From: Labia minor
Lineage: Eukaryota; Arthropoda; Insecta; Dermaptera; Spongiphoridae
Direction of reading: 5' to 3'
NCBI GenBank assembly: GCA_963082975.1
Contig: OY720350.1
Span: forward strand, 19,996,910-20,060,909
Length of the DNA: 64,000 bases
Positions 1 to 56,180 of this stretch are shown in pieces. Both the position numbers and the translations under genes were made by a program. How positions within the stretch are numbered: the stretch's first letter is position 1; the number at the start of each line of letters is the position of its first letter. The notes below the pieces were generated by a model. The model searched no databases and had not been told where the DNA came from. It saw only the letters and a list, made by a program, of their open reading frames with translations.

Positions 1-790
1 AAATAAAAAAAAACAAAACTTAATTGGCTGCAGATACAATAGGCATTTAAATTTTGTTTTACCAGCATTATTAATGAGTAGATGGATGGCAGGTTCACTG
101 TCAAGCAGATAACTGGCGCATTGTCTAACACTTTGAAGGGAAGCCAGGTCCAGAGCCACTAGGACTGTTTCCCCGAGGGGCATGTCAGGGTCGTGGTTTT
201 CTTGGGCGGCGCGGGTGGCTACGTCCTCCGCGGCAACCTTGGCTTTCGATAAGTCCCGACAAGCCATTATCACTCGACAGCCTAACACATAAATCAAGAT
301 TATTAATTTACTTGACATCATAAAGGCTTATATATGTATATTCAGTATACATAGTACATACTCATGCAAATATTGTAGATATATAAAGCAATTTTTATAT
401 TATTTTAAATTTATTAAATATCTGTATTTCAATTTGGCTATAATTAAAAAAAAAACGAAGAAAAAATATTCCTATTAAAATTAATACCATAGAAATTTAA
501 TTAAATCAAAAATAATAATTAAATGATTAATACATATAAAAAACAAATTAAAAACAATACTTCCCTTCCTATCGTCGGTCGGTAAAAATTGATTAAAAAA
601 TTTAATTAATTAATGTTGAATTTATTATACATATTAAATTATACTAAATGAATATCATTATATATATTCTTATAACTACGCAAATAAAATATTCTCATTT
701 TATTATATTTTTATTTCGTTAAATAGTCATATGAAAATATAATACAATATAATACAATTTGTTAAAAATTCATTGTTAAATTACATTAGG
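1..790. repeat. Segmental duplication, block 1 copy A
   Basis: Near-identical in direct orientation to 54915-55733, including SDR exon 3 and its flanking intron. Identity stops after the shared string aggtgggtata. Confidence 0.85.
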
Positions 791-3700
791 TGGGTATACA
801 TATTTAATAAAAATAATACCTGTATTTATTTATTTATTTATTCTTGGCTTTCATGGATCTATATCCTTTTAAATAGTATTAAATTTATTTTATATTTATA
901 TCACTTATAAAGTATATATATTAATTTTTTTTAACTTGCACCTTCCTAACATGTTATATAACTCACAGTGCTACACATGACATGCCTGTAATTTATAAAT
1001 AAATATATATATTTAAATATGTAGTATAAAATTTTTTATTATTTTGAACTTTATAAAATAATAAAAAACAAATTATAAATATATCTTTAATTAAAAAAAT
1101 TCTATTATATAAAAAATTTACCTCTCTTGACAAAATCCAAAGCAGTCTCTTTGCCAAGTCCAGTATTACATCCTGTAATGACAGCAGTTTTTCCATCTAA
1201 ACGAGCTTTGGAGTGACATCGACCACTTAATACTTGCATGATTATACTCGTACTATACATAAATAAGATAGATATTCAACTATTAATTATTATTAATACA
1301 TTTATAATAATACTTTATAAAAAAAAAATTTAAAAAACCACGTTTTACTAACGGACTAAAAAGGAGAAAATAATTTTTTTCTAAAAATCCATACTGACAT
1401 TACATACAAGAGATCTGATTTGAATCAAACTGTCCATAACGTAAAACGTGGGGCGCAACAAATAATAATTTTTCTATTCAAATATGATTTCCTTTATTAA
1501 TTTTTATTTAGCATCAATCGTTGTATTTTTTAAGGCTTAAGTTTTCACCAAAATTCTTGTAGAAGGGAATATTATTAGTAATACGATAGGATAAGTTTCG
1601 TGATATAATTTTTACCGACCGACGATAGTAAGGGAGGTATTGTTATAAATATTACCTATTAAGTATTTAACAGACTTTTTGTAAAAGAGAATATTATTAG
1701 TTAATCATTAGAAGATTTATCGTATATTTAATATATTTAAAAATTGTTTAAGATACTAACTTATACTATCAAACTTTTCAAATATCAAATTTTTTATCAG
1801 ACCACTTGTAAAAGGGAATAATATTAGTAGTCCAATAGATTTTTTCTAATTTAAATTCTTTCGAGCATTAAATTTAATATTTTTGATAAAGATCAATATT
1901 CATTCATCAAATTATATTATGCGTGGTTTTAATGTTTATTTTGAGATTTATATATTTTCTATATTTTTATTAGAAACAGGATATTTTAGACATATTTGCG
2001 CCCCACGTTTTACGTTATGGACAGTTTGATTCAAATCAGATCTCTTGTATGTAATGTCAGTATGGATTTTTAGAAAAAAATTATTTTCTCCTTTTTAGTC
2101 CGTTAGTAAAACGTGGTTTTTTAAAATTTTTTTTTATAAAGTATTATTTTCTACTTTTTAGTCTTCAAATTTTGCAATCGATTTTAGTTTACTCATATTA
2201 ATTAAATTTATGAAGATAATTTAAGAAATGAATGTGTACTAAATATTTATATTTATAAAGTTGGGGATTTTATGTTTTTTTGTTTACATCCGACATTTTG
2301 AATTTTTATATATAGGAATAATTTTGGATTATTTCATTCAAATTGTAGCAATTAGAAGCTCATAGAAATGATAATATTGTATTGTCATCGAGAGCAAAGC
2401 TGTTGGTGAAGTTTCAAGAAAATCCGATGATTGGAAGTCGTCGAAAAATCGATTGCAAGATTTGACGCATACACACAGACAAGAATACAAGTTAAGTAAA
2501 ACGTGATAAAAAATAAAATACAACTACATCTATTTTAAGGTATCAGTTATTTTTATATTATACATTTTATATACTTATATAACAATTTAAAGTTATTAGA
2601 TGCTTGATTTTTCAATTTTATATTAATTTATATTTTATAAATAATATAAATATTGCGTTTGAAAATATACCATAAAATTTGAAGGATAAACTTTAAAATC
2701 ATGATTTTCTTATAAAATAGAATTAATAATTTTTCATATGAATTAATAATAGACATAAAAAAATAATTTAAATATTCAAATGCAAATTTATATATAATAA
2801 TTTAATATAGATTGATTGATTGATTTCATATTTATATAATTAAAATAATCATAATAAACAGCAGTAGGATTTGACTAGCCGCTCCACCTTCCTTTGGCGG
2901 GGTTTCCCCCCCCCCCTCCTGGGCTCTCTCAAAGACAAATTTTCATTAAGATTTTTTTTTTAAATTTAAATATTTAAAAAAGTTTTGTAAATGAAACATT
3001 GATTTTACAAAATCTGGCAAAACAATTTATTTTTGTATTTTATTTACTCGTATTCACAGTTTTAGAAAGAATATATTTTTTTCCAGCTATAAGTAAAGTA
3101 GATCATTTTAGCTTTCCTCATAGAATGAAGATAGCTTATACGATGGTCGGAAAATTTTTAAAAATTTTGCTCCGAGATGTTTTCAGATCTCCACTTTTCA
3201 GACGGTTCTGAATCAAACCTGCAAAAAAAATTTTTTGATCCGGCCGGCCGTTCGTTACCGAGATTACGTCTAAACGAAATGAGATATTGTCTTGAAATTT
3301 GATATTGAGATGTTTTTTTTTTTGAAATGATGGGCGGGGATTTGATTTTTTTTGGACAAGATCGGACCATAAGTAAGGGTAGTTTAAAGAAGTGTCAAAA
3401 CACATTTTATTGATTTTTCTCAATAAATACCGATTTTTATGAGAATTATACTATCGTATTAAATTTATAGGGAATCGAATTTACTAAAAGTTTCATTATA
3501 TTCATTTTTACGTAAACTTAATAATAAAGGAGAGATATTTTTAAAAAAAACTACTCTAAGATGTGGGAAGCTTATCGTCTACCCGTAGTGGCAGGATATT
3601 TTGAAAAAAAAATCTGGAGTGTCTCCACTCGACTATCTCGCAAATTTGAATTTGATTAAATAACATATATTAATTTAAATTAAATTAAATCAATTAAATT

Positions 3701-4482
3701 ATAAATTAAAATTAATAAATAATATTTATTAAATCAGCGCATGTTTGGCTCTTTGTTGATGGCACCACGTCACGTGTTGGCACGTGAGTTTTGCAGTGTT
3801 AAAAAGAAAATTTAGCAAAAAAATAGATTTTATGTGATGTAATCTGTAATTAGTCTTCGCTTCATAATTTTTTTATGAAATTAACATTTAATATATTAAT
3901 AATAAAAAGCATTTAGAATTTAAGTAATATTTTTATTATTCCCCATGAAGCCGTGGCCTACTGGGAATCACTGTACTAAGTTATACTTTAAGAAGTTTTT
4001 TTGCAAATAAAAATAAGGATTATATTTTTTCTTTTTTATTTGTAATATAATAAATTATGTACTGTACATAATATATTGCAATTTGAATTTTTTTTTCTCT
4101 TCTGGGGGGGGGAGGGTTAAAACCCTAAAAAACCTCTGGTTGCGCCACTGTAAACTGTAAATATAATATATATACCGAAATGGTAGAATAATATAAAATG
4201 AAATGTAATATATATTTTAATAATATTGAACAAACGAAACCTTCCCAAGTTCATATGAATTATAATATATAGTTTTTAATATTTAATGTGTTAAATCAGG
4301 GGTGGCCAACCCGCGGCCCGCGGGCCGCATGTGGCCCGCCGTAAACATTTTTGCGGCCCGCGAGATTCATCACACTTTTATATTCTGCACCCTCATGAAA
4401 CAAATATCGCACTAGTGAAATATATATGATTTCATTTTTTTTTATTTTAGTATTATATATATTTTACAATGTGCATTCAGTA

Positions 4483-4529
<47 letters not shown>

Positions 4530-5629
4530 GTTTATATGTAAAAATAATAGTAAACATAATAAAAATTCATTATTTTTCAATTTGTCACGCCAAACAATAT
4601 CTATAATGGGTGTAAATCTAATATGGGTATGTATAATTTTATATGCGGCCCGCGAAGTTATGATGCATTTCCAAAGTGGCCCGCAAGATCATTTGGGTTG
4701 GCCACCTCTGTGTTAAATAAAGTAAAGATTTCGTGGGTAATAAAAAAAAATTTAATTAAAACATAAGAATTTATTGATAGTTACACGAATCAAATAAAAA
4801 ACCCATTATTATAGATGAAAAAAAAAAGAAATTTCAAGAATGATATATTGGATAAATTGATAAATATATATATATATATAATATATTTATATATGTACTC
4901 GTATATAACTATATATATATTATTCACCTAATATTTTAAGTTAAAATTAAAAATGTTATTAATATAAAATTAATTAAAAATTTAATTAATATTTAAAAAT
5001 AAATAATTTTCATTTATAATAGATTAATGAATTTATTTATTTACCTTGTTAGAAAATACTTAAATAATTATATTATAATGTAACTAAATTTAATTTCAAG
5101 AATTTAGTTCATAATTTATTTTGAAATAAAAATTAACGTTGTTTTTAATACATATCCATGATTATATGATTGAATGAAATGTAATTTAAAAAGAAAATTA
5201 AATAATATATATATATATATATATATACTTATGTTATAATATTACAATATAAGTATTTATTATAAAAATAAAAGTTCTCTTCAATAATTTAACTTCTAAG
5301 TCATATAATAAAAAATATATTAAATATAAATTAAATGACGAGGCCAGGTTCGATACAATAAATAAGTAAGAAGAAATCTAGAAATTATAAAAAAGATATT
5401 TTTTTTATTTAATACAAACTAATACTATAGGTAAAAAAAACTATGGAACTATTTTTTTTTTGTATTATATCTTAATAGGAGGGCATTAATCAAGAGTTTA
5501 CCTTCTAGTATTCGTGGATTTATTCCGTCTGAAAAAGAATCGTATTCCTGTGCCTGTTAGGATGGTCGTAAATGCGAAGATCCCCATGGCTGATGGATTC
5601 AGCCACTGCTTAAGCCAGCCATCCGTCAT
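63..5629 (-). CDS. SDR family retinol-dehydrogenase-like gene, 5' part (copy A)
   Basis: Three exons join in phase: 5502-5629, 1122-1225 and 63-281; the gene runs off the left edge. The start ATG at 5629 has an in-frame TGA four codons upstream. Residues 1-42 hold a hydrophobic stretch (about 14-31) followed by RR, a likely N-terminal ER or mitochondrial anchor. Exon 2 gives SGRCHSKARLDGKT and the cofactor motif TGCNTGLG (TGxxxGxG, about residues 60-67). Exon 3 gives VIMACRD and ends at LINNAG. The order matches microsomal NAD(P)-dependent retinol dehydrogenases (RDH11/12/13 type), which interconvert retinal and retinol or reduce other lipid carbonyls. The catalytic YxxxK would lie in exons outside the window. 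Donors and acceptors are all GT/AG. The 4.3-kb intron between exons 1 and 2 carries several transposons. Substrate is not inferable. Confidence 0.8.
544..586 (+). repeat. R2 family, 3' end fragment
   Basis: The string ending cctatcgtcggtcggtaaaaa is the R2 3' terminus seen in full at 12104. It also sits at the matching position in copy B (about 55478-55505), so it predates the duplication. Confidence 0.5.
1309..2145. mobile_element. Foldback element with 150-bp terminal inverted repeats
   Basis: Arms 1309-1458 and 1996-2145 are near-perfect reverse complements, both containing the motif CCACGTTTTACTAACGGAC and ending inward at GGGGCGCAA. The spacer of about 540 bp has no ORF. It contains an R2 end (1609-1640, minus) and three degraded tandem units starting gtaaaagggaatattattag, about 120 bp apart (about 1559, 1680 and 1808). 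It lies in the SDR intron and is absent from copy B. The class is unassigned. Confidence 0.75.
2146..2861. other. AT-rich intronic stretch, no gene seen
   Basis: Low-complexity AT sequence. A slightly richer patch at 2380-2490 resembles the 'gaagtttcaagaaaatccgatgattgga' style of degraded arthropod repeats, but no boundaries are visible. Confidence 0.4.
2862..4150 (+). mobile_element. Degraded relative of the 8789-11097 MULE-like element
   Basis: Both ends match the 8.8-kb element: the left end reads cagtaggatttgactagccgctcc, and the right end reads tggttgcgccactg at 4137-4150. About 740 bp of left arm (2862-3600) and 300 bp of right arm (3850-4150) are shared. The transposase-bearing centre is gone, and an R1 fragment (3614-3805) sits at the junction. 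Flanks share only taaac, so the target duplication is unclear. Confidence 0.7.
3614..3805 (+). repeat. R1 family, 5' fragment
   Basis: Begins ctggagtgtctccactcgac and runs through the cgcatgtttggctctttgtt and cacgtcacgtgttgg core to gcagtgttaaaaa. The 3' half with the hairpin is missing. Confidence 0.75.
4297..4710. mobile_element. hAT-type MITE with perfect 8-bp TSD
   Basis: Terminal inverted repeats CAGGGGTGGCCAACCC and GGGTTGGCCACCTCTG differ at one base. Target duplication TGTTAAAT is perfect at 4289-4296 and 4711-4718. It is 414 bp, with repeated gcggcccgc motifs and an internal (TTA)n run near 4481-4525. No transposase. It lies in the SDR intron. Confidence 0.85.
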
Positions 5630-5870
5630 GAATGAAGGTCCTCAACTAAGGTGTACGTATAAGAGAGAGAGAGTTAAAATTTTTTACTTCAGAACGTTGT
5701 TAACGGGATTTTCGCTCGACCTACTATACCAAATAACAATACCACCATGAACTTAACATCGATCTTCACAAAATAAATCAAATGTATATTTTGTTTTAAT
5801 TTCTACCAACAATATATATATATATACTGGACACTGCTTCGAATCCACACGGTCTCAACGAATAATTAAT
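4985..5870. repeat. Segmental duplication, block 2 copy A
   Basis: Matches 56330-57228 and contains SDR exon 1. Outside exon 1 it is AT-rich intron and upstream sequence with (TA)n runs. Confidence 0.85.
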
Positions 5871-5879
5871 TCCTACGGT

Positions 5880-5975
5880 ACTGCAGAATAAGAAGCCGAA
5901 ACGTTAAATGTTTATCTAATTCAATAAATAAATTATACAGATATGTTGTCTTTTAATAAAAATTCATTTAATAAT
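5880..5975 (+). repeat. Short 'GAAACGTT…GTCTTTTAATAAAA' module
   Basis: Reads actgcagaataagaagccg, then aaacgtt, then tgttgtcttttaataaaaatt. Recurs at 28850-28985 and 61684-61810. It resembles 3' parts of arthropod Penelope-like elements, but no reverse transcriptase is nearby. Confidence 0.45.
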
Positions 5976-6250
5976 TATGAAAAAAAATGACAAAAGTTTT
6001 AATTAAATTTATTTTTAAAATATTTGCACCTGCGTGATATAAATTGATAATTAAAATGAAAAAATAATTAGAATTGGTTATTTTAATAGGTGATATAAAA
6101 AAAAAGTTTGTTTTTAATAAAATGATAAAAAATTAATTTCTAGCTTTTTTTAAACTAAAAATTAATAAAATCTATAGAATAGGAGTAACTACCAATATAC
6201 TTAAGTAGATGAAACCTTCTCTATTCTTTTCTATTCTTTTATTTTAAGTA

Positions 6251-7334
6251 CGAGGGCAGGTCAATTAGTGCGTGACTTTTTGTATGAGGTTTTTGGATAA
6301 AAAATTGTTTTATTTTTCAAGGTAGAGTCTCCTTTGAGCTTTATCACTTCGTCCAACGTTTCTTGGAATTTTTTTTATCCCTTCCAAAAAATAAGATTTG
6401 TCGAGGACATCAAAATACGTATTTGTTTATGATTTCATCGTTGGAGTCAAATCTCTTTACACCGAGCCATTTCTTCAGGTTTGGAAATAAGAAATAGTCC
6501 TTCGGGATTAATGCCGAACAATAGGGCGGGTGAGGGGGCAATTCTTATTCCAATTCATGGATTTTCTTGGAAATTCACTTTTTACTATCTCGTAAGAGAT
6601 AGTATTGCGATCACGAAAATTTTCGATGTTGAGATTTTGATGTTTTTATACGTTTTGAAGGTTCCTGAATCATTTTCACTAAGGTTCAAAAATGTCTGTG
6701 TGTGTGTATGTGTGTGTGTGTTATGTACATACATATGTAGGCAAGTTTACGCAAAAACGGTTTGAGCTAGAATGATGAAATTTGGTACATGAGCATAATT
6801 CAAAATTCATAGTTTTCTATCAACTTGGAGAAAGAGGGTCATTACTTGCAACGTTTTGATTTTTTTTCCTCTAAAGTGACCGTAAAAATAAAGATATATG
6901 TTTGATAATTTTTCACATGATTAATAATTGTATAAAACTGCTATATATAGAATTTCAGCTTGATTGAATCGCTGAAAGTACCAAAACACTGCAAATCTCA
7001 CGCGCCAACACGTGACGTGGTGCTATCAACAAAAAGCCAAACATGCGCTGGTTTAAAATTTATTATTTATAATTTATAATTAATTAAATTCAATTTAAAT
7101 ATAATATATTATGTTATTTAATCCAATTCAAATTGCGAGATAGTCGAGTGGAGACACTCCAGGTAATTTCCATTTTCTTCTCAAATCACGAGGTAGTTGC
7201 TATTAATGGATGTCAAAAAAAACTAAAAGACCCAGCTGGTTCAAATTTCGACAGGAGTCAGCTGATAGTAGTGTTGCCATTTCTTTTAAGAGTCGAGAAA
7301 TTCAAAAAGTCACAAACTTATTGACCTGCCCTCA
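6251..7334 (-). mobile_element. Mariner remnant, interrupted by R1 (copy A)
   Basis: Ends CGAGGGCAGGTCAAT and ATTGACCTGCCCTCA are flanked by TA. The minus strand near 6340-6480 reads as a mariner transposase tail (KKWLGVKRFDSNDE, then SYFLEGIKK). Most of the transposase is deleted. An R1 copy is inserted at 6584-7162. The copy at 62081-62613 lacks that insertion. Confidence 0.75.
6584..7162 (-). repeat. R1 family, near-complete copy with a matching empty site
   Basis: Starts with the hairpin actatctcgtaagagatagt, contains a (TG)n tract, and ends gcgagatagtcgagtggaga then cactccag. The duplicate mariner at 62 kb reads straight through as aaattcacttttttccattt, so both ends of this insertion are exposed. 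Confidence 0.85.
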
Positions 7335-8187
7335 TAAATCTCCAAATTGAAAATAAAAACAAACTTGTGTTTATCAATTTTAAATATAACTAGCTCAATC
7401 ATTTGAATTTCTCTTAGCAACGAATGGATTGTTTTAATATTTTTTAGAAATAAAAGTATAGTTTGAAGAAAACTCTATAAAATAATAAAGTTTTTTATAA
7501 TAAAACATCGAACCTCTAATAATTGGAGTTTACGGTATCTATGATATAGCCGCCTTATAGGACTATATAAAAATATTTTGGTGAATTTTGTAACAATTTA
7601 ACAATCCGCCCAGCTAATTTTGATTCTCTAACCTTATCAGTAATATCCCAGGCAGGCAGAAAGATATAAAAAAATTCTAAACCTATATTTTGATTCTTGG
7701 GTATATGAATTTAAAGATTTTCATGTTTTGATTTTTATATTTATAAGATTTATTGTCATCTTGAACTGTTAGAAGTTTCAATATATATACCTACACATAA
7801 ATATATAGATTATATAATAAATATAATTTTTTTTTAATATATATTAAGATTAGATAGTAAGGTTAAGATTTTTTATATCTAATTCCAATTATTTAATTAT
7901 ACATAGAAATAAAAATAAAAGAATTGTATTGATCTTTTTAACGTGTAAATCTCATGAAGAGTTCACTGCTATCCAGGCAGATAATCATTTTACTCAATTA
8001 AACTTCGAACGAAATAAATGGTATAGTGTCATATCCAGACCATTACTTTGTCTGGTTTTAACGAAGATATATATACTGCCGATTTTGAAATATCCTTGAA
8101 TTGAACAAACCTTTATTTATGAGTATCTATGTATAAAGTATAGTTTTAACAAAAATAAATAAATAAATAAAATTTTCTATATTATTA

Positions 8188-8490
8188 TTACCGACCGACG
8201 ATAGTAAGAAAGGAATTGTTTTCACACCAAATTTCACATGTGGAGATTTTTACATATCTCCACAAATCAAGCATTTTCTTAAGAGAAAAAACTAATTTTA
8301 GCATGATGTCTGTCCGTCCGTCCGTCAGTATAGATGTGTACAGCCTGAAGGGCTCAACGGATTTTGATGAAATTTGGTATATATAATGCAACAGTATGAT
8401 GGATTGTTCAACTTTTGGTGCAAATCCGGAAACCGGAAGTGGTAGTATTAGCGATCGACGATAGGAAGGGAAGGGTTATTTTCACACCAA
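8188..8490 (-). repeat. R2 family copy
   Basis: Begins ttaccgaccgacgatagtaag, has the hairpin gtggagatttttacatatct followed by ccac, a gtccgtccgtcc microsatellite, the gattttgatgaaatttggta motif, and ends gcgatcgacgataggaaggg. Nearly identical to 63463-63760. Confidence 0.8.
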
Positions 8491-8788
8491 AATTCAGAAT
8501 TACAGAAATTATTTTCTCCTTTTTAGTGCATTTAAATAAAAGCTGCTTTTAAAAAGTTTTTTATATTTTTTTTTTTAATTTTAATTATTATTAATATTCT
8601 TAAAGGATGATTTATCTATTTTCATTGTAAATATTCTGTTTAGAAAAATTTAAAAAAAAAAATTTAATAAAGAATAAATAAATTTTAATTTAGAATAAAA
8701 AATATTTTTTCTGAAATTAAAATTAATTATATAAAATTTAAATATATAAATCAGATTGATTATTTTATTATCATATGTCACAGTGGGA

Positions 8789-11097
8789 CAGTGGCGCAAC
8801 CAGGATTTGATCCTGGGGGGGGGTTTTGACTAGCCGCTCCACCTTCCTATGGCGCCCCCCCCCCCCCCCGGGCTCTCTCAAAGACAAATTTTCATTAAGA
8901 TTTTTTTTTTATATTAAATATTTAAAAAAGTTTTGTAAATGAAACACTGATTTTACAAAATCTGGCAATAAAATTTAATTTTGTATTTTATTTACTCGTA
9001 TTCACAGTTTTAGAAAGAAAATATTTTTTTCCAGCTATAAGTAAATCATTTTAGCTTTCCAAATGAAATAAGGATAGCTTATACGATGATCGGAAAATTT
9101 TGAAAATTTTTGCTCCGAGATTCTTCGAGAATTCCACTTTTCAAACGGTTCTGAATCCAAAACTGCAAAAAAATTTTTTGAACCGGCTTGTTACCGAGAT
9201 TACGTCTAAACAAAATGAGATATTGTCTTGAAATTTGATATTTAGATGTTTTTTTTTTGGGAATGATGGACGGGGATTGGATTGTTTTTGGACAAGATCG
9301 GACCATAAGTAAGGGTAGTTTAAAGAGGTGTCAAAGCACATTTTATTGATTTTCTCAATAAATACCGATTTTTATGAGAATTATCATACTATCGTATTAA
9401 ATTTATAGGGAATCGAATTTACTAAAAGTTTCATTATATTCATTTTTACCTAAACTTAATAATAAAGGAGTTATTTATAAAAAACTACTTAGAGATTTCG
9501 AAAGCTTTTCGTCCGCCCGTAGTGGCAGGATATTTTGAAAGAAATCATGTAAAAATCCCTAAGAAAAAATTCCTAAATAAAAAATTTCCCTAATTTTTTT
9601 TACTTATTTAATAATGAATAGCCGAAGAGACTTAAATGAGGTAGTTGGTGTCATCCCATCTGTTCCATCTGGTTTTTTAGCGTCCCATTTTTCATGGTTT
9701 GCCTTCATTATAGTCAGAAGCTTATCATGCGAGTCGCTGAATCGTTTCCTTGGTGAACCAGGCTTCTTACCACGAACTTCACGACAGATTTCCAAAGAGA
9801 TAAGGTTATGCTCAATATGGATTTGCTTAATCAGGTTCCATACTGATGTCTTGTAACCTCCTAAGCGTGAACGAAGAGCATTGTTGTAACCTTCCAATGC
9901 ATTATTTGTTCGAGGCAAACCCATCAAAGTGGCATCGGAGATGTTCCAATGTTCCAATGTCGAATTCGGGGTCATAAAAGCCAGCCAAAAATTGTTCACC
10001 TAGCCAAGTGCGCTCGAAGTAAGAAAAAAGATCACGAAGTTTTACCCTGTTGGTCGTCCAGCTAATGCTTGGTAGGCTACAATGACTTTTGATGGTGGTA
10101 CCAAAACCAAAGCTACAAGAGTTCGTAAATGAGTGGAGTTGTCAGGATTATCTATATCATTATAGAGCTTCAAAACTTCTGGCATTGATTTGATGTTTCT
10201 ATAAATGCATTGAGCAAAATGAAAAAGACAACCTCTGATGATAGTAAATTTCACAAATTGCGTTATATACTGGTGAAATATACGGTGCAAATGGTGTATT
10301 TTGTATTTGGAATCATTAAGCTATTAAAACGTATGATAATAAACTGAATTTGAGTAAATTCCCTTTATTTTACATACGAATTTTTTTGGAAAAATCACGT
10401 GTGTGGGCCCTATGTATGTATTTTTTGACCTATTTTTCCCTACTTTCGGTCCAGGCCCGATTACCTCCTTGGGAGGTCGTGTCTCAGGCAACTGGGTGTC
10501 ATGCTCACCTTGTGATTTAATTTTCACAATTAAAATTAATACAAAAATGAAAAAAATTGTTTTTAGGGATTTTTTCAGTCAGCGATATTTTTATTTAGGG
10601 GTTTTCGGTTTTAGGGATTTTTGACTTTTATGGATTTTTTCCTTTAGGGATTTTTACCCGTTTCCATTTTGAAAATATTTGTCTTCGCTTCATAATTTTT
10701 ATGAAATTAGCAATTAATGTATTATTAATAAAAAATATTTAGAATTTGCGTAATATTTTAATTTATTTTATATTTAAATAATAGTCAAATTGGAAAATTT
10801 CAGAATCATCTAGTAATCTTATATTAAGTCTTTTGTTTTTTATGATTTAGGAGAAATAATAAAAAAAAATTTTATTTCTTATATTTAATTCTGTACGAAA
10901 AAATAAGCAATTTTTTTGTGTTGAAATTTGTTTAAAATAAAATAAACTTACTTATTATAAACTAAGTTATACTTTAAGAATTATTTTTTTTTTCTTTTCT
11001 ATTTGTAATATAGTACATAATATACAGCAATTTATATTTTTTTCAATCCTGGGGAGGGTTTTAACCCCCAAACCCCCCCCCCCTGGTTGCGCCACTG
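8789..11097 (-). mobile_element. MULE-like DNA transposon, 2.3 kb, with 8-bp TSD
   Basis: Terminal inverted repeats CAGTGGCGCAACCAGG and CCTGGTTGCGCCACTG match perfectly. Target duplication CAGTGGGA is perfect at 8781-8788 and 11098-11105. The interior carries a decayed MULE-type transposase on the minus strand (9604-10290). The flanking arms (8810-9535 and 10680-11080) recur at 2862-4150. The CAGTGGCG ends and 8-bp duplication look hAT-like, while the protein looks MULE-like. A perfect TSD suggests fairly recent insertion, despite the broken transposase. Confidence 0.85.
9604..10290 (-). pseudogene. Broken MULE transposase
   Basis: The minus strand reads GCLFHFAQCIYR and ALVLVPPSKVIVAYQALA, then in a second frame VKLRDLFSYFERTWLGEQFL, then in a third frame LPRTNNALEGYNNALRSRLG. 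These follow one another in MULE-domain transposases (the GC-FHF-Q, FERT-(Y/W)-IG and RTNN-EG blocks). Frame changes lie near 10050 and near 9950; the second coincides with a doubled ttccaatg. The upstream catalytic part is not readable. It probably derives from a donor that supplied transposase to related elements, and is now inactive. Confidence 0.75.
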
Positions 11098-11289: not shown

Positions 11290-11440
11290 AAATAATTCTG
11301 TTTTTGAATGCGCGCGCACCTTTCCACTACCCCGAGCTCCCTTCGCTTTCTTACTCCTTCGCCCGCCTCAGCAGTGCATTCATACGCAGAGCTGATTCCG
11401 GCTAAAATCAACCCTTAATCACTCGATAATAAAATAAGTT
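11290..11440. other. GC-richer patch of unknown nature
   Basis: Contains gcgcgcgcacc, a pyrimidine-rich ttcgctttcttactccttcg and several CG dinucleotides, unlike its AT-rich surroundings. No ORF or element end was recognised. Confidence 0.3.
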
Positions 11441-12104
11441 GAGCTGTGGCCAGGTCCGAACCGACCGACGGTTTGAAGTAAATTAATTTCCAGCTATAGA
11501 AACAATTTCAAATAATTTTAATATATCTATTAATGTAATAAAAAACATATATGCATATAACATAAATATTTTTAATTTTATTTTATTTATAATATATGTA
11601 TATATTTATATGTAAGACCAGGCTGTGACGTCATGAATGGCTGGATGACGTCATATAATTTTAAATCAAGAAAAAACTAATAAATATGATTTTCCCGAGG
11701 ATAAAACCAATACAAAGTGCATGATTCGTGGTGATATATAAAAAAATCTCCTCATGTGAAATTTGGTGTGAAAATAACCCATCCCTTCCTATCGTCGATC
11801 GCTAATACTACCACTTCCGGTTCACGGATTTGCACCAAAAGTTGATCAATTCATCCCACTGATGCATTAAGTAAATATACCAAATTTCATCAAAATCGGT
11901 TGAGCCGTTCAGGCTGTACACATCTATAATATATTACAGACAGACGGACGGACAGACGGACAGACGGACGGACAGACATCATGCTAAAAATACTTTTTTC
12001 TGTTTAGAAAATGCATGATTCGTGGAGATATGTAAAAATCTCCACATGTGAAATTTGGTGTGAAAACAATACCTCCCTTACTATCGTCGGTCGGTAAAAA
12101 TATA
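11441..12104 (+). repeat. R2 family, longest copy
   Basis: Starts gagctgtggccaggtccgaa. The R2 3' module (gcatgattcgtgg..gat, aaatctcc hairpin, tgtgaaaa, then ccttcctatcgtcgatcg) occurs twice, ending near 11810 and at 12104. Between them lie the aaccgattttgatgaaattt-type motif and a (GGAC)n microsatellite. It looks like a dimer or composite of two R2 units. Confidence 0.75.
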
Positions 12105-12540
12105 TTGAAAATTAATTTCTTTTTATTAATTACTTATTAATTGAACCCAGAAATTATTATTGATCGTTAGAAAAAAAAAATTAAATCATACTTAAATGAT
12201 ATTAAATATATTTATAATGATTCGATAATAATTTTAATAAATTATCATTAAATGCTTATTGATACAAGATACAATCAATTTAATTGTTTCAAAATTTCAC
12301 ATTTTATAAATTCAATAAATTAAAAAAAAAAATCCAAAAATTATTATAAAATAAATTATATATTTAATTTAATTTCCCTTCAATATATAATAAATTTTTA
12401 ATTAATTTCCTATTATACAAAAACTAACTATATTAAAAATTCTTACAGACCTAAAAATAATTTATATTTTATTAATTTTAAAAATATTTTTAGTAATCTT
12501 TTATAACTTATTTAAATACATATTTTCTCCCCTTTTTACC

Positions 12541-12715
12541 TACCGACGATAGTATGGGAGGTATTGTTTTCACACCAAATTTCACATGAGGAGATTTTTC
12601 CATATCTCCACGAATCATGAACTTTGTATTGGTTTTATCCTCGTGAAAAATCATTTTCTATTATTTTTTTCTTAATTTAAAATTATATGACGTCATCCAG
12701 CCATTCAAATCTTTG
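12541..12715 (-). repeat. R2 family fragment
   Basis: Begins taccgacgatagtatgggag, includes the hairpin module and the tgacgtcatccagcc motif, then breaks off next to an R1 fragment. Confidence 0.65.
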
Positions 12716-12730
12716 AAAAGAATTAATCTT

Positions 12731-13038
12731 AAAGTGTCCGTAAAAATAAAAATATGTTTGATAGTTTTTTTCCATGATTAAAAATTGTATAAAACTGCTA
12801 TATATAGAATTTCAGCTTGATTGAATCACTGAAAGTACCGGAATTAATTTTTTAACACTGCAAATCACGAGCCAACATTTGACGTGGTGCCATCAACAAA
12901 GAGCCAAACATGCGCTGGTTTTATAAATATTTATTAATTTTAATTTATAATTTATAATTAATTAAATTTAATTTAACTATAATATATGTTATTTAATCTA
13001 ATTCCAATTTGCGAGATAGTCGAGTGGAGACCCTGCAG
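12731..13038 (-). repeat. R1 family, 5' half
   Basis: Runs from aaagtgtccgtaaaaataaa through the ctatatatag and tgacgtggtgccatc core to gcgagatagtcgagtggaga. The hairpin end is missing. Confidence 0.75.
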
Positions 13039-13309
13039 CTAATTTAATTTAAAAATCCATTAATATTTGAATTTGATAAAAATCTGCTTTCAAGATCAAG
13101 AAAACATTCCTATATATATAGACTATTTATGTATATAATATCTAATCAAAAACATACCTGTTAAAAAGGGGGCCAAGTTCCTATCGGCTATTTGTTTGCC
13201 TAAAAAAGGGTTCAAATCCATCCCAATGCCAAGTTTAGATGCACTTCAAAATCATTCATAATCATTTTTATCAACAGCCTGATTCACTGGTAAACATTTG
13301 GCATTCCAA

Positions 13310-13700: not shown

Positions 13701-13756
13701 AGCAGATTAATTTATATATTTAAATAATAAATACAATTATACAATTAATCTATTGT

Positions 13757-14010
13757 TACGTCCCTTTAGAGGAAAAAAATCAAAACGTTGTGGGTAATGA
13801 ACCTCTTCCGGTTGAGCTACATTTCTCAAAAGTTGATAGAAAAGTACGAATTTTGAATAATGCCCGTATACCAAATTTCATTATTTTAGCAGACAGACAT
13901 TTTTTCAACCTTAGTCAAAATGATTCAGGAACCTTCAAAACGTATAAAAACATCAAAATCTCGACATTGAAAATTTTCGTGATCGCAATACTATCTCTGA
14001 CGAGATAGTA
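13757..14010 (+). repeat. R1 family, 3' half
   Basis: Starts in the middle of the family at ctttagaggaaaaaaatc and ends with the hairpin actatctctgacgagatagt. Together with 12731-13038 it could represent one copy broken by rearrangement, but the two are in opposite orientation. Confidence 0.75.
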
Positions 14011-14930
14011 AAAAATGTATTCAATTAAAACAAAATAAACTATTCAATTAATTTATGAAAAATAAAATTAAAATTAATCACTGTCTGTTGTCGTAAGTCG
14101 GTTTTCTTTGACAAAAAATTGGTCCAATGTTTGCTGAACATATTATTATTGAATTTACACATCTAAATGAAACGAGCAATCAATATATAATTCATATCTA
14201 TTTAAAAATAAATTCAAAATTCAAAATATTATTTACAAAATTTGCGATGATCTCATTAGAAAACATCAATTTTTTAAATCTTGTTTTGTTACACATTGTA
14301 TTTATTATTTCATTTAACATTCCAATTAATTTTCCACAAAAACATATCAAGTTGATTTACATTCTTTAATATCCTTCCAATGAACAAAAAGAAAATTTAA
14401 AAAAAAATTAAAGATTCGAACCCAAAACAACGCACCCTCGAAAATCTAACGAACTACAGTGAAAATTAGTACTAATTAAGCACCCCCACAACTTCGAAAA
14501 AAACGCAAAACAGAACGAGGTATTGGTGTATAAAACCACCCACCCTGGTATATAAAATAACAAATTATGGATTGTAATGGATTGCCTTTGAATATTGATA
14601 AAAATAAATAATTTAAATCATTTTAAATACTATACTATATTGAAAAAGTAAATCTTTCCTATTTTTCAGGAATTATTTTGGAAAATATAAGAAATGTCCC
14701 CGAATCAAAATTAAAAAAAATAAAACAAGAACTTTTGTCAATATTGTATAGAAATTTTTTTTTTCCAATCCAAAATAACCGATCAACTTTATTTGGATAG
14801 GGATTTTTTTTTTAAAGAAGGATTTCTTTATGCAACGTTTGATAAACAACACGAAAAGAATATTTTATATTTTTTTAAATTTTATTTTTGAATAATTTGG
14901 CCTTGTTTTCGTTTTTTAAACATTCATTAG
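14011..14930. other. AT-rich intergenic stretch, no gene seen
   Basis: Low-complexity sequence. Short ORFs rich in Ile, Asn and Lys have no recognisable motif. Confidence 0.4.
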
Positions 14931-17605: not shown

Positions 17606-20253
17606 TTATTATAAGGTTTCATGCCGTATAAATATGCTAGGCTATTAACAAACCATGTCAAATGTAATATTAAAACATATCTATAGCAGAAACAGAGACA
17701 AAATGAATCCCATGCATTTTCACTCCAAAAGTAAACAGGAACAAAAACGGGAATTAGAATTGAAAACAACAAATAGAGTGGAAAATAATATCTAAAAATA
17801 AAAATTCTTCGATTAATTGATTTGATTTTCAAATTAGAATATAAAATAAATGCTTAATTTAGATGAAGGAGAAAATTTTGGGGATAGGATCATAAAAAGA
17901 CGTTAATTGGTAGATGAATGAAGGGCCAAAACTGCTCTAGGAGGGAAAAACAGAATGAGTGTTGCTCAATCTTAACAATTTTTACTAGTTAATTAATCTG
18001 GATGAAATGGAGAATAGAGCGGGAAAGAAATAATGAATGATAGTGTTTTATTACTTGGTTTGGAATCGAATGAAAGGATCAGCTTCAAGGTCCGACATAT
18101 CAATGGTGAGTCCCTTTTCCTTGACTTGAGGATGTTTTCGCATGAAAAGCCATCCCATGTGGGAGAAGAAGAAGCCACGATTTGAATTATGAGGGTCTGC
18201 ATCTGTATCACTGTATTTATGATGTTGACGATGATCGCGGCACCATGTAATCATTGCATTCTGTCCAGCTATCGTATGACACATCACCAAAAACAAGCGT
18301 AAAGGCCATTTAGCTTTGTAAGTTTTATGCGCGAACAATCGATGCCCACCAGCAGTGACTCCCATTCCCGATAAATGACCAATTAAGGTTGCTAAAAAAT
18401 TAATTATATTCTTTGTTATTCATTATTTTAATTTTAGTAATTATTTAGTCTAACCGATGGATCATGGATTTGGATAAAACTTTACCACGGGGTTCTTTTT
18501 TTTTTTTGATTCAAAACAAACTTTCCTTATGCAGTATGTGGTGGTCGTTTCTAGTTTACGAGATAAAAATTATTAAAGTTTGCGTATCGATATATTTAAT
18601 TAATTTATTTATTTAATTAATTAATTTTTTAATCTTCTTATATCCAAACCGAACTTATAAAAATCAGAAAAATAGTGGAGCCCTCTGTTGGTCAAATAAT
18701 AAAAGATGGTAATTAAATAGAATATCAATGGATTTATATGCAAACTTTAATAATTTGTATTTCGTAAACTTGAAGCGACCGCCACGTACTGCTTAAGGAA
18801 AGTTTTTTTTTAATCAAAATTAGCTGGAGTGTCACCACTCGGCTATCTCGCAATTTGAATTGGATTAAATAATATAATATATTATATTTAAATTAAATTT
18901 AATTAATTATAAATTATAAATTAAAATTAAAAGATAATATTTATTAAACCAGCGTATGTTTGGCTCTTTGTTGATGGCACCACATCACGTGTTGGCGCGT
19001 GAGATTTGCAGTGTTAAAAAATTAATTCTGGTACTTTCAGCGATTCAATCAAGCTGAAATTCTATATATAGCAGTTTTATACAATTTTTAATCATATGAA
19101 AAACTAACAAACATATATCTTTATTATTTAGAGGAAAAAAAATGAAAACGCGCGCGCGCGTGGTAGGTAATGACCCTCTTCCGGTTGAGCTACATTTCTC
19201 AAAAGTTGATAGAAAACTACGAATTTTGAATAATGCCCAAATTTCATGATTCTAGCTCAAACCGTTTTAGCGTAATCTTGTCTACATACACACACACACA
19301 GAGAGAGACATTTTTCTCAAACTTAGTGAAAATGACTCAGGAACCTTCAAAACGTATAAAAACATAAAAATCTCAACATCGAAAATTTTCGTGATCGCAA
19401 TACTATCTCTGGCGAGATAGTAAAAAGGAATCCAGAGGTAAAGTTTTATCCAAATCCATGATACATCGGTTAGACTAAACAATACTTACCATATAACCAT
19501 GTTTGCCATCTAATTTTAAAACAATAATAAACATAGATACCACGAAAACTTAAAAGATGTAAAATAATTGCAATAAAAATATTTGGCCATACTAATTCAT
19601 TTTTAAAAAAACTTAGTAGACGTTAGAAAATTATTACCATATTTTTTTTCATCATATTTCGATATTTCCTTTTCATTTGCATCGTTTTCACTAAAAAAAA
19701 ATTAATAAACGAAAATTATACTAAATTATTCTATTATAGAAAATAGATCAAAATTGCTTATTCTTAGACAAAACGAAAGAAACAAAGAATAGAATAGAAG
19801 ACAGTTTGAGACCTTTTGTTGCTCTCTATCAATCTGTCTAATCTGCATTAATTATTAATTAAAATAATTTTTCAAAATTTATTTTTTAATTCATTTTAAC
19901 ACTAAAAAAATAAATATCATAATTAAACATGCATTTAAAAAAAATGATGTTGATGGTTATTCATTGTTGCTTAACTATTAGATAAATCATTGTTTGAAAA
20001 CGTTCAAAATCAAAACGACAATTCAATGCAACTTGGAAGATATTAAAGTTAAAGGATCAATTTAATAAGGTAAATCAAGTTCCAAAATCCATAAAAAAAA
20101 CTCTTTATAATTTTAAATGAAATACATCAATAAAAAATATTCAAATAATAACTATAAAAATATCACAATTTAATTATTTTATGATTCGATGGTAAAGAAG
20201 AACATTTGTTTAATTTACCTTCTTATAGTGGGATGTTCTTCGTATAATTTCAT
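17606..20253 (-). CDS. Acyl-CoA Delta9 desaturase-like gene, 3' exon not found
   Basis: Five exons join in phase: 20219-20253 (start ATG), 19638-19690, 19490-19591, 18055-18391 and 17606-17791, giving about 238 residues. Histidine box 1 is HRLFAH (about residues 80-85) and box 2 is HRQHH (117-121). They are followed by DADPHN and GFFFSHMGWL, then a hydrophobic pair and WFVNSLAYLYG. Membrane di-iron desaturases of the ER use these boxes to bind iron and insert a Delta9 double bond into fatty acyl-CoA. Two oddities: the His of the NSxxH iron-binding site is Tyr here (NSLAY, residue 229), and box 3 (HNYHH) was not found between the last donor and the next gene or beyond. The N-terminus is also short. 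It may be a decayed paralogue. An R1 repeat sits in the 18391-19490 intron. Confidence 0.75.
18822..19422 (+). repeat. R1 family, complete copy in desaturase intron
   Basis: Starts agctggagtgtcaccactcg, with core cgtatgtttggctctttgtt and ctatatatagcag, contains a (CA)n/(GA)n tract, and ends with the hairpin actatctctggcgagatagt. At 601 bp it is among the best copies. Confidence 0.85.
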
Positions 20254-22590: not shown

Positions 22591-23007
22591 ATGTGTATGT
22601 AGATAAGATTACGCAAAAACGGTTTGAGCTAGAATGATGAAATTTGGTACATGAGCATTATTCAAAATTCGTAGTTTTCTATCAACTTTTGAGAAATGTA
22701 GCTCAACCGGAAGAGGGTCATTACCTACCACGTGTTTTCATACTTTTTCCTCTAAACTAACCGTAAAAATAAAGAGACATGTTTGATAGTTTTTAACATG
22801 ACAAAAATTTTTATAAAACTGCTATATATAGAATTTCAGCTTGATTGAATCGCTGAAAGTACCGGAATTAATTTTTTAACACTGCAAATGACGTGGTGCC
22901 ATCAACAAAGAGCCAAATATGCGTTGGTTTCATAAATATTATTTATTAATTTATAATTTATAATTAATTAAATTAAATTTAAATATAATATATGTTAATT
23001 AATCCAG
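22591..23007 (-). repeat. R1 family, lacking both extreme ends
   Basis: Contains acggtttgagctagaatgat, gctcaaccggaagagggtca and ctatatatagaatttcagct, ending near the taattaatcc segment. The hairpin and the ctccag end are absent. Confidence 0.75.
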
Positions 23008-23430: not shown

Positions 23431-23619
23431 ATAATTTTATAAATAATAAACAAAAGACAAGAGATTTTATCTTTTAAAAATAAATTCTATTTCATATTTT
23501 CATCGAACTTTTAGTTTGTTTATAAAATCTATATGTCTGTGGGTCTGTCGCCAAAAATTTTCGATTTTTTAAATTTTGATTTTGGATTCGAGTAGAGCTT
23601 AAAAAAGTGTATAAATTTT

Positions 23620-24076
23620 ACTATCTCGCTAGAGATGGTATTGGGATCACGAAAATTTTCGATGTCGAGATTTTGATGTTTTTATACGTTTTGATGGTCC
23701 CTGAATCATTTTCACTAAGGTTGAGAAAAATGTCTCTCTCTCTCTGTGTGTGTGTGTATGTAGACAAGATTACGCTAAAACGGTGTGAGCTAGAATCATG
23801 AAATTTGGTATACGGGCATTATTCAAAATTCGTATTTTTTTTATCAATTTTTGAGAAATGTAGCTCAACCGGAATAGGGTCAACCTACAACGTTTTCATT
23901 TTTTTTCCTCTAAATAATAAAGATATATGTTTGATAGTTTTTCACATGAGTAAAAATTGTATAAAACTGCTATATATAGAATTTCAGCTTGATTGAAGTA
24001 CCGGAATTAATTTTTTAACACGTTGACTGGCAATCACGCGCTATCACGTGACATGGTGCCATCAACAAAGAGCCAA
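23620..24076 (-). repeat. R1 family, hairpin end plus core
   Basis: Starts with the hairpin actatctcgctagagatggt, has (CT)n then (GT)n, and ends at gccatcaacaaagagccaa. The ctccag end is missing. Confidence 0.8.
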
Positions 24077-24112
24077 TTAAGTTTTATTTAACTTGCTTGG
24101 TTGTCTGTATGG

Positions 24113-24660
24113 TTCAAATCTAGTAACTTATTTTTAATACAGTTGCAATTGACCAATCGAACTAAAACTTTGCACACTTTTCAGATTTGGATGATAATTC
24201 ATGAATATGAAATAAACTTTTCATTTTCTTAATTAATTAATTAATTAATTAATTAATCCTTCTGTATTTTTCAAATCTGCTAACTCATTTTTAATACAGT
24301 TGCAGTTGACCAATCGAACTAAAGCTTTGCACACTTTTCAGATTTGCATGACAATACATGAATATGAAATAAACTTTTCATTTTCTTAATTAATTAATTA
24401 ATTAATCCTTCTGTATTGTTCAAATCTGATAACTCATTTTTAACATAGTTGCAGTTGACCAATCGAACTAAAATTATGCACACTTTTCAGATTTGGATGA
24501 GAAAACATGAATATGAAATAAAGTTTTCATTTTCTTAATTAATTAATTAATTAATTATTTAAAGTTGACCAATCGAACTAAAACTTTGCACACTGAAATA
24601 AAGATTTCATTTTCTTAATTAATTAATTAATTAATCCTTCTGTATTGTTCAAAGATTTCA
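24113..24660. repeat. Tandem repeat, unit about 145 bp, 3 full copies plus remnants
   Basis: Each unit carries gttgca.ttgaccaatcgaac, ctttgcacacttttcagatt, catgaatatgaaataaactt and an (ATTA)n run of varying length. Later units are shortened. Confidence 0.8.
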
Positions 24661-27472: not shown

Positions 27473-32787
<5,315 letters not shown>

Positions 32788-35600: not shown

Positions 35601-35604
35601 AATA

Positions 35605-36186
35605 AGCTGGAGTGTCCCCACTCGACTATCTCGCAATTCGAATTGGATTAAATAACATAATATATTATATTTAAATTAAATTTAATTAATTATAAAAATA
35701 TAAATTAATAAATAATATTTATTAAACCAGCGCGTGTTTGGCTCTTTGTTGATGGCACCACGTCACGTATTGGCGCGTGGTTTACAGTGTTAAGAAATTA
35801 ATTCCGGTATTTTTAGCTGAAATTCTATATATAGCAGTTTTATACAATTTTTAATCATGTGAAAAATTATCAAACATATATCTTTATTTTTATGGTCACT
35901 TTAGAGGAAAAAAATCAAAACGTGTAAGTAATGACCATCTTCCGGTTAAGTTACATTTCTCAAAAGTTGCTAGAAAACTACGAATTTTGAATAATTCCCG
36001 TATACCAAATTTCATTATTGTAGCTCAAACCGTTTTTGCGTAATCTTTTCTACATACACACACACGTACAGCTATTTTTCTCAAACTTATTGAAAATGAC
36101 TCAGGGACCTTCAAAACGTATAAAAACATCAAAATCTCGACATCGAAAATTTTCATGATCGCAATACTATCTCTGGCTAGATAGTA
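35605..36186 (+). repeat. R1 family, complete copy
   Basis: Starts agctggagtgtccccactcg, has gcgcgtgtttggctctttgt and a (CA)n tract, and ends with the hairpin actatctctggctagatagt. Confidence 0.85.
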
Positions 36187-36539
36187 AAAATTGAATCTCT
36201 CACTTATGAAATTTATGATTTAAATACTACACCCTTGACTTAACGAAAAAATTATCAATTGAATCATTAATATTTTAATATTCTAAATTTTTATTTAATT
36301 TTAATTAGGTATATTGTGATTTTTATTTTTAAATTAATAATAATATAATAATGATAATAATAATAATAAAATAAACATAATATTTATTTATTATTTATTT
36401 TTATTATTAATTTCAATTGATTGATTGTAGATTGTAGAATACGTTTTACACATATTCGTCCCACCTTTTACTCCTCTTCTACTTCACTGGTCAGAAATTA
36501 TTATTATTATTTTCAATTCCGCCGTTCTATTTTGATCTC

Positions 36540-40391: not shown

Positions 40392-41081
40392 CAGATGAGC
40401 CTCTCGAAATGAGTAATGTTCATTTTCTAGTGGCGTCACCTATTGAAAAATCCCAGGACTTTTCAGCCCATGTAGTATCATTGATTATTTTTTTTATAAA
40501 TAATTAAAATAAAAAAAAAATGAATAATGAAGATTAATTGCAAATATGAAACTCTCATTTAAAATAATGTTACTAGACAGGTGATACATTTTTATAATCT
40601 GAATATTAATTTAATCAGTTGATTTCTCAAATAAAAATGTACATTTTTTTATTAGTTCATAAAATATAAATTTAAAAAAATCACTTTTTTTAAATAATAT
40701 CAATGGATTATCAATATAATCTTTAATTATTAAATTAATTATAATGTTAAGGAGAAATAATTTAACTACTCTAATTTTCAGATATACTTAAAAATTATAT
40801 ATATATAAATTAAAATTAATTAAATCACTTAAATTTCCTAAAACTCTATTTAAAATATTAAAAATTATTTGAAAATCAAATAAAAAAAAAATGTAAAATT
40901 CGACGAGATTAAAAAAACGAATAAAGATTTTAAGTCGACGCTTTACCAATTGCAGCCATTGCAAGACAAATTTATATCCTGCTAAATATCTTATATCTTA
41001 TATATAAAACTAAAATTAATTAATATTTATAAAAAAAAAGTATATTAACATCAATCGTCATCCAATACAATTTTAAAAAAT

Positions 41082-41128
41082 CTGGAGTGTCTCCACTCGA
41101 CATTCTCGCAAATTTGAATTGGATAATC
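41082..41128 (+). repeat. R1 family, 5' tip
   Basis: tctggagtgtctccactcga and attctcgcaaatttgaattg, then unrelated sequence until the rest of the family resumes at 41610. A 480-bp insertion or rearrangement separates them. Confidence 0.65.
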
Positions 41129-41609
41129 AAGTTTTTTTCTATATTTGAAAATTAATTAAAATTTTATTCTATTCGATCAAAGGATTTAAGGTTTTTAACA
41201 TAATTTTTACTGATAACATTTTATTAAAATAAGAAGACTTGGGCTTAATACTATATTTTTGTGAGTTGCGTAAATTAGCATTTGTTTTCAAATGCCTTTA
41301 GCTGTATTTAACTTTTATTATAGTTTTGATAAAAATTAAATACATTACCAGGTATTTGACGGGGACGTAGCAATGGATGTACTCATTACATCTCTTATAT
41401 GCGATGTTCAATGTGTATACAATTCAATTACATACATCGTATATTTAGATGGATAGTGTAATTTGAATATGAATTAAACAGGGATATTATTTTATAATCG
41501 TATACACATTTATATTATCATTATTAGATTATATTAACTTCCTTCAATACTTTGAAAAAGAAATCGAGAAATTTAATTTTTTTTTTTTGGCTTCTGAGAT
41601 AGAACTCCT

Positions 41610-42360
41610 CAGCGCGTGTTTGGCTCTTTGTTGATGACACCACGTCACGTAGTGGCGCGTGATTGGCAGTCAACTTGTTAAAAAATTTAAAAAATTAATT
41701 CCGGTACTTTTAGCGATTCAATCAAGCTGAATATAGCAGTTTTATACAATTTTTAATCATGTGGAAAAACTATCAAACATATATCTTTATTTTTACGGTC
41801 AGTTTAGTGGAAATAAGTTGACTTGTCGCCAGGCACAGAACCGACGGACCGTTTGAAATAAATTAATTTTCAGCTACAGAAACAATTTCATAATAATTTA
41901 AATGTATCTATTAATGTAATAAAAAACAGATATGGATATAACATAAATATTTTTAATTTTATTTTATTTATAATATATAAGGATGCGCTGGCTGTGACGT
42001 CATGAGGGGCTGGGTGACGTCATATGATTTTAAATTAAGAAAAAACGAATGAAGATGATTTTTCCCGAGGATAAAACCAATACATAGTGCATGATTCGTG
42101 GAGATTTGTAAAAAATCTCCTCATGTAAAATTTGATGTGAAAATAACCCTTCCCTTCCTATTGTCGATCTGTAAAAAAATGAAAATGTGGTAGGTAAAAT
42201 AATGGTTCTCTTCTGAATGAGCTACATTTCTCAAAAGTTGATAGAAAACTACGAATTTTGAATAATGCCCATGTACTAAATTACATTATTCTAGCTCAAT
42301 CCGTTAATTCGTAATCTTGTCTACACACCCACACCCGCACACCCTCTGGCGAGATAGTAA
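41610..42360 (+). repeat. R1 family copy, split by an R2 insertion
   Basis: R1 sequence from cagcgcgtgtttggctcttt to acggtcagtttagtgg (41818), then R2 (41822-42178), then R1 resumes at gctacatttctcaaaagttg and ends ctggcgagatagtaaaa. This gives the order of insertion: R2 entered R1. Confidence 0.8.
41822..42178 (+). repeat. R2 family, nested copy
   Basis: Starts gccaggcacagaaccgacgg, has the two tgacgtcat motifs, the gatttttcccgaggataaaa segment and the gtggagatttgtaaaaaatc hairpin, and ends ttcctattgtcgatc. Matches the first half of 11441-12104. Confidence 0.75.
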
Positions 42361-55733: not shown

Positions 55734-55860
55734 ACCCCGAGCCTCGGCTCGGTACTTAAGTTAAAAAGAATGATTCATTATTATTGGGTTTGGCTGGTAA
55801 TATTAATACCTGGGACACCGAGCTCTCGCTCGACCCTTTAAAAAATATTAATATACAATT
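55733..55860. other. GC-rich hairpin pair specific to copy B
   Basis: Palindrome ccgagcctcggctcgg near 55738-55755 and a related accgagctctcgctcgacc near 55816-55835. They begin exactly where copy B departs from copy A. Confidence 0.45.
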
Positions 55861-55954
55861 CTTTAATAATTTATTACAATTATTAAATGTTGCATGATTG
55901 CATCATTCTGATTAAAATGAATTGAACTGGGGTCCTCAATAATACAAACAAATT

Positions 55955-56144: not shown

Positions 56145-56180
<36 letters not shown>

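Follow-up and report, generated by a model that had tools for sequence, protein, structure and literature searches.

The 64-kb stretch of DNA analysed here (the window) contains a dispersed repeat family, R1, which makes up 8.4% of its length. A blastn search with positions 18823-19425, in which pieces were merged and ends inspected, recovered 13 R1 fragments. The 'at least 13 loci' of the preliminary description therefore hold if fragments are counted, while both ends are kept in only six of them. Copy 2 (6582-7166, plus strand; 585 bp running from TT to GTAA, 89% identical to the 614-bp consensus), copy 4 (18820-19423, minus), copy 7 (31738-32314, plus) and copy 8 (35603-36187, minus) are full length; copy 9 (41078-42360, minus) keeps both ends around an insertion of a second family, R2 (41811-42174), and other sequence, and copy 11 (59566-60072, minus) keeps both ends with a deletion behind the first arm of its 5' hairpin. 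All other fragments are truncated: copy 1 (3610-3812, minus) at its 5' end, copy 3a (12730-13042, plus) to a 3' half, copies 3b (13751-14011, minus) and 12 (61229-61534, plus) to 5' halves, copy 5 (22592-23006, plus) to an internal fragment, copy 6 (23618-24076, plus) to a 5' part, and copy 10 (58453-58570, minus) to a 3' end.

Open reading frames near R1 in the window match a fatty acid desaturase, a trypsin and a Mos1 HTH domain above the Pfam cut-offs, and a reverse transcriptase below them; as a set, these frames would suit an insect or some other arthropod. The window also contains a ~9-kb segmental duplication that pairs 1-8732 with 54921-64000 and so reaches both window ends. Its pieces are 92-97% identical, and several insertions are present in one of its arms only. 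One such difference is a 4.5-kb stretch (57229-61699) with mariner-like frames and three R1 pieces, showing no obvious target duplication. Elsewhere, inspection by eye revealed a MULE-like insertion at 9545-10673 with imperfect terminal inverted repeats (GAAATCATGTAAAAATCCCTAA and GGAAACGGGTAAAAATCCCTAA) and a 9-bp duplication (ATTTTGAAA), within which two frames gave no Pfam matches. A 149-bp tandem array (24104-24653), which recalls the central repeats of DINE-1, lies directly behind the truncated R1 copy 6.

Anatomy, direction and abundance of R1

The architecture of tip and hairpin that had been described for this family is real: the tip CTGGAGTGTCTCCACTCG occurs at nine places in the window with at most three mismatches, and so does the hairpin ACTATCTCTGGCGAGATAGT (ten rows, one palindromic site being read on both strands), while 100 dinucleotide shuffles yielded neither. 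The 5' and 3' labels originally given to the ends, on the other hand, were most likely swapped, since that direction puts the stem-loop at the wrong end. We therefore read the element in reverse, taking the nested hairpin ACTATCTC-NNNN-GAGATAGT to mark what is most likely the 5' end, and CTGGAGTG..., read backwards, to mark the 3' end. In this direction the layout of R1 is TT-ACTATCTCGC-CA-GAGATAGT ... (TG)n ... GCGAGATAGT-C-GAGTG-GAGA-CACTC-CAG-CTWA/TT. In copy 2, on the plus strand, the 5' subterminal inverted repeat (subTIR), ACTATCTCG, and the 5' hairpin made by its nested inverted repeat occupy 6584-6603; then come a (TG)n microsatellite at 6697-6721, the 3' subTIR GCGAGATAGT, inverse of the 5' one, at 7135-7144, and the 3' stem-loop GAGTG-GAGA-CACTC at 7146-7159, followed by CAG-GTAA/TTT.

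The inverted repeat is subterminal, starting 3 nt from the 5' end and stopping 22 nt before the 3' end in four of the six two-ended copies, with the other two within 1-4 nt. Its inversion at the hairpin had been noted before and is indeed present, although the consensus gives it 10 bp and copy 2, the copy that had been named, 9 bp; across the six two-ended copies the exact match spans 6-10 bp. The extreme ends themselves are not inverted repeats, matching at 1-4 of 16 positions in six copies. The 5' nested hairpin is more stable than its shuffles in three copies (z of -4.0 for copy 2, and -8.0 and -4.2), and 98.4% of 63 cells are paired across seven copies. At the 3' end, 86.7% of 45 cells are paired in the stem-loop and 91.7% of 36 cells in an overlapping form, GGAG-ACA-CTCC, with modest stability relative to shuffles (z of -0.3 to -2.2). 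Among the aligned copies no pair has changed on both sides in either hairpin, so their support is conservation, not covariation. The TG-rich tract is present in seven window copies (2, 4, 6, 7, 8, 11 and 12), is lost from copy 3b, and varies in length among copies.

An exact search with the R1 tip in the 604,477,936-base assembly (71 contigs) returned 21,671 matches (10,945 + 10,726), against none for the reversed control, placing the copy number in the host genome in the tens of thousands. For the study of ends we combined the window, which was not selected by the R1 tip, with twenty 10-kb stretches selected for holding the 3' tip, giving 264 kb in total. This sample contains 58 R1 3' ends (at most four mismatches) and 23 5' ends kept from 43 raw matches; most of the 20 discarded were taken as the palindromic hairpin read from the opposite strand, and A-rich letters follow 19 of the 43. 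Because the 10-kb stretches were picked by the 3' tip, both the R1 coverage (13%) and the excess of 3' over 5' ends (58:23) are biased. The four bases after the 3' CCAG are CTAA in 25 of 58 ends and CTTA in 10, with ATTT or CTTT in others, and T occupies position 2 in 58, position 5 in 55 and position 6 in 57 of the 58.

Sixteen end pairs in the 264 kb lie at most 760 bp apart; measured from subTIR to CCAG, fifteen of them span 571-638 bp and the remaining one 131 bp. The fifteen full-length copies, four of which lie in the window, were used to build a consensus of 614 bp; they share 86.8-99.1% pairwise identity (median 92.3%), and this near-identity points to recent movement. In the consensus and the alignment of ends, as had been proposed as a check on the family, we found no terminal inverted repeats and no fixed target-site duplication (TSD) beyond Ts. 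The 131-bp pair, in L018 (plus strand, 6827-6958), is an R1 derivative of which the initial ~109 bp and the 3' terminus remain. In L037 (minus strand, 200-880), two R1 copies can be seen by eye to stand head to tail with only a T run between them; an automatic scan for such R1-R1 tandems gave 0 of 58 at its threshold.

No frame longer than 110 aa overlaps any R1 copy in the window (among stop-to-stop frames of at least 90 aa there are two short overlapping ones). Outside its own genome, searches for R1 gave nothing convincing: a single match in viral contigs, none in phages or plasmids, and eight in prokaryote genomes, where we estimate that about seven would be expected by chance. String searches of a paper library found no transposon paper, judged by title, among the matches listed.

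Insertion into T runs and the R2 family

Both ends of R1 adjoin Ts. TT precedes 22 of the 23 5' ends in the 264 kb, where the chance of TT at the base composition of the window is 0.15 per site. Unoccupied sites were sought by blast with joined flanks, which produced many AT-rich chance matches; among the matches listed, only those spanning the junction were used. One filled and empty pair is that of copy 2, for which an empty site had been reported within a duplicated mariner. The site stands, as six Ts at 62434-62439, but the duplication is not just of the mariner: the site lies in the second arm of the ~9-kb segmental duplication described above. The empty arm reads CACTTTTTTCC and the filled one CACTTTTT [R1] ...GTAATTTCC, with five Ts before and three after the element. 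Among the matches listed, a second paralogue of this site, in L018, also has six Ts, and a paralogous empty site of copy 4 (18440-18615) has twelve, against five and four at the filled site. For copy 1, which offers its 3' end only, the junction lies in nine Ts, and the paralogue near 10.67 kb, across a MULE-like insertion of its own, has four.

We found no evidence of a TSD beyond these Ts. When the two flanks of one copy are compared, the longest match that includes a base other than T has a mean length of 3.7 nt (16 copies), as against 4.2 nt between copies; it reaches 6 nt or more in 2 of the 16 copies, and in 27.5% of the comparisons between copies. As for the TT itself, a 2-bp duplication cannot be told from Ts belonging to the element, and the same ambiguity appears in the cited papers.

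These sites bear on an alternative in which R1 would be MITE-like, moving non-autonomously by cut-and-paste, with its inverted repeats subterminal and TT duplicated at the target site. The two extra Ts at copy 2 (six when empty, five plus three when filled) can be read as just such a duplication, and DINE-1 itself was formerly classed as a cut-and-paste type, as available parts of PMC2374699 recount. Nevertheless, the mismatched extreme ends and the lack of a TSD beyond Ts speak against it, and the element that carries the R1 3' end, described below, encodes Rep-PIF1; we consider a cut-and-paste origin very unlikely.

A second family, R2, follows the same plan. Its copy at 11435-12097 (minus strand) has an 11-bp subTIR, ACCGACCGACG, after TT, a GTCY-like microsatellite, CGTCGGTCGGT, a 3' stem-loop and the end CTTA/TT; further pieces lie at 41811-42174, 12536-12707, 8190-8496, 63464-63770 and 1614-1644. 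The stem-loop GACCTG-GCCA-CAGGTC, with a 6-bp stem, is found at four of five R2 3' ends, the window copy having one mismatch, and CTTA/TT at all five. Besides the plan and the terminus, R1 and R2 share a related core of 125 bp (score 26.9, against 21.8 for the best of 500 shuffles; 0 of 500 as good). The R2 copy within R1 copy 9 sits in a T run of R1, with seven and three Ts, where five other R1 copies have 5-8 Ts. In L023 (5467-6740), an R2 copy finishes in CTTA-TT and an R1 copy starts from that TT, leaving the two families end to end.

A candidate autonomous partner

The genome contains 104 matches to Pfam Helitron_like_N, two of which were looked at more closely. The first, at C1:47,862,609-47,874,779, combines an uninterrupted Rep-PIF1 frame of 2,181 aa with the R1 3' terminus. 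Within the frame, Rep lies at 650-776 (Helitron_like_N, 1.3e-23) and PIF1 at 1249-1468 (1.9e-31). A match to Exo_endo_phos_2 stays under the Pfam cut-off of 27.4 bits, both in the whole protein (E 0.0013, 19.0 bits) and in a C-terminal piece (E 0.00024, 21.4 bits), and no endonuclease appears among the PDB sequence matches to the protein. The C-terminus additionally shows a weak match to a Ulp1-like protease. Other repeats, R2 included, lie inside the 12.2-kb locus.

About 1.25 kb past the frame, the final 41 bp of the R1 consensus recur without a mismatch, followed by TTTT. A 92-nt query from this tail finds three genomic places, its own locus included. The second is a 249-bp copy at 99.2% identity that runs up to the same CTAATTTT and then passes into different flanking DNA; the same boundary before a different flank indicates that the R1 end is the partner element's own 3' end. 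At the third (83%), the match breaks off at the expected start of the R1 end, with R1 fragments behind it, so this place neither adds to nor removes support for the boundary.

The 5' side is less clear. Only the first copy has positions 1-522 of the R1 consensus, with an internal duplication, 3.6 kb in front of its frame. The second partner copy is 5'-truncated relative to an older relative and lacks the R1 5' part, so that one copy speaks for a shared 5' end. Given nine R1 5' ends in 64 kb, we estimate the chance of an unrelated R1 piece upstream of the frame at about one in four. If the upstream part in this one copy were the partner's own 5' end, as we infer, the whole would form a 12.2-kb element of which R1 is a deletion form. 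An autonomous Helentron with the same ends, which the preliminary description had suggested looking for, is thus found in part: a Rep-PIF1 frame and the R1 3' boundary at two sites, with the 5' end in one copy only and the endonuclease match below the cut-off.

The Rep motif of the partner, VEFQMRGSPHEH, is of the RGSPH form, which Thomas et al. 2014 (PMC4067079, in the portion available) assign to Helentrons, with RGL assigned to Helitrons. This weighs on a second alternative, that R1 is a non-autonomous canonical Helitron with a 5' TC, a 3' CTRR and insertion between A and T. The CTAA that precedes the Ts in 25 of 58 3' ends and the hairpin immediately upstream of the 3' end would suit such an element. 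However, the R1 5' end is TTAC, not TC, and the empty sites place the 5' boundary in the T run; the 10 ends in CTTA, and others in ATTT or CTTT, depart from CTRR; and subTIRs are a Helentron/Helitron2 trait. Together with the RGSPH motif, these features leave a canonical Helitron highly improbable. A SINE or other retroposed repeat with terminal Ts or As, which the T-rich flanks and high copy number might recall, has next to no probability, as both R1 ends are defined and conserved, there is no TSD beyond Ts, and the window contains no tRNA (ARAGORN, bacterial code) and no Rfam match at the gathering threshold.

The other of these two places, L039, has a frame of 1,785 aa with no endonuclease match up to E 0.01 and no R1 ends. 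A regular expression for the Rep motif gave only chance-like matches, both in the window and in the window together with a 200-kb sample. Seven of the Helitron_like_N matches have identical scores, in frames of 1,537-1,652 aa (five of them of 1,652 aa; for example at C9:43365333, C9:45506044, C10:14925745, C1:82181971 and C5:81088381), and perhaps reflect a recent Helitron-type burst. At C5:46740114-46771612 a decayed Helitron-like element probably stands in tandem, as five broken but equal Rep matches follow one another there at intervals of 5.7-9.8 kb.

R1 as a non-autonomous Helentron and its relatives

We conclude, at a probability of roughly 0.92, that R1 belongs to the rolling-circle transposons of the Helentron/HINE (DINE-1-like) kind as a non-autonomous member; it is about 614 bp in length and carries no genes. 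The name of non-autonomous Helentron is well supported by structure, by insertion and by the common 3' end. The absence of terminal inverted repeats and of a fixed TSD, the empty sites in T runs and the Rep-PIF1 element with the R1 3' end likewise uphold the Helentron-associated (DINE-1/HINE) assignment first proposed. Some points count against it: the subTIR of 10 bp is just under the 11-15 bp published for HINE/DINE-1 (PMC4067079, PMC2374699 and PMC7492417, as far as their available text goes), compensatory changes are absent from both hairpins and the stability of the 3' stem-loop against shuffles is only modest, the partner's endonuclease match falls below the Pfam cut-off with none in the PDB matches, and the R1 5' part stands upstream of the partner frame in one copy only.

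R1 was most likely mobilised by the copying machinery of a larger Helentron bearing an identical end, and the partner protein may be what moves it. By analogy with published Helitron models, from which the biochemical steps are taken, a Helentron enzyme (Rep nuclease and PIF1 helicase) of the same genome would recognise the ends it has in common with R1, nick one of them and, in rolling-circle replication, displace a single strand. Replication would halt at the 3' stem-loop, and the strand would then be inserted between two Ts of a T run, with no target-site duplication.

The correct name matters for annotation, as a family that takes up such a share of the window may, by inference, form a large part of the 604-Mb genome. 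R1 is a very abundant, recently active family alongside a long uninterrupted Rep-PIF1 frame with the same 3' terminus, and this pairing permits testing of the end-sequence needs of a Helentron enzyme. More tentatively, R1, R2 and the partner could form a distinct Helentron lineage, in which CTWA and a T run come a few bases after a 3' stem-loop, Helentron subTIRs are joined to a relaxed form of the canonical Helitron CTRR end, and the transposase has an additional domain, a Ulp1-like protease, after the endonuclease. We regard this as doubtful; if true, the rise of R1 to tens of thousands of copies and ~8% of the window would be the work of such a lineage.

Wider Helitron types are treated in PMC5148889 and PMC4344730, from which we draw on parts. 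The partner resembles autonomous Helentrons in its Rep, PIF1 and RGSPH motif, and differs in its sub-cut-off endonuclease match and in the weak Ulp1-like match at its C-terminus, where some Helentrons carry an OTU protease (PMC4067079, in part). The Drosophila DINE-1, in the sections of Yang and Barbash 2008 (PMC2374699) used here, resembles R1 in the partial inverted repeat beside the 5' subTIR, the microsatellite in the 5' block, the stem-loop a few nucleotides past the 3' subTIR, TT insertion and an ambiguous boundary in T runs; its subTIR is 13 bp long and of another sequence, and the microsatellite is (TG)n in R1 and GTCY-like in R2. The Cg_HINE of the Pacific oyster share the plan of a subTIR (11-12 bp there, 10 bp in R1), a complementary inverted repeat after a 1-12 bp spacer, a microsatellite, a 3' palindrome and a TT target, and carry satellite-like arrays that full-length R1 copies lack (PMC7492417, as excerpted). 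The HINE of mite and Culex (PMC4067079, within its available passages), like R1, have a palindromic subTIR lying 2-4 nt in from the 5' end, a 3' subTIR followed by a stem-loop, variable terminal Ts, a T-rich target without TSD, and an autonomous Helentron with common ends (for R1 the 3' end, and the 5' end in one copy). The mite subTIRs measure 12-15 bp, against 10 bp in R1, and, compared by structure, the 3' subTIR and stem-loop lie 38-60 and 8-35 nt from the 3' end, against 22 and 7 nt in R1. As far as we can tell, R1 is a good example of the known HINE type, not a new type.
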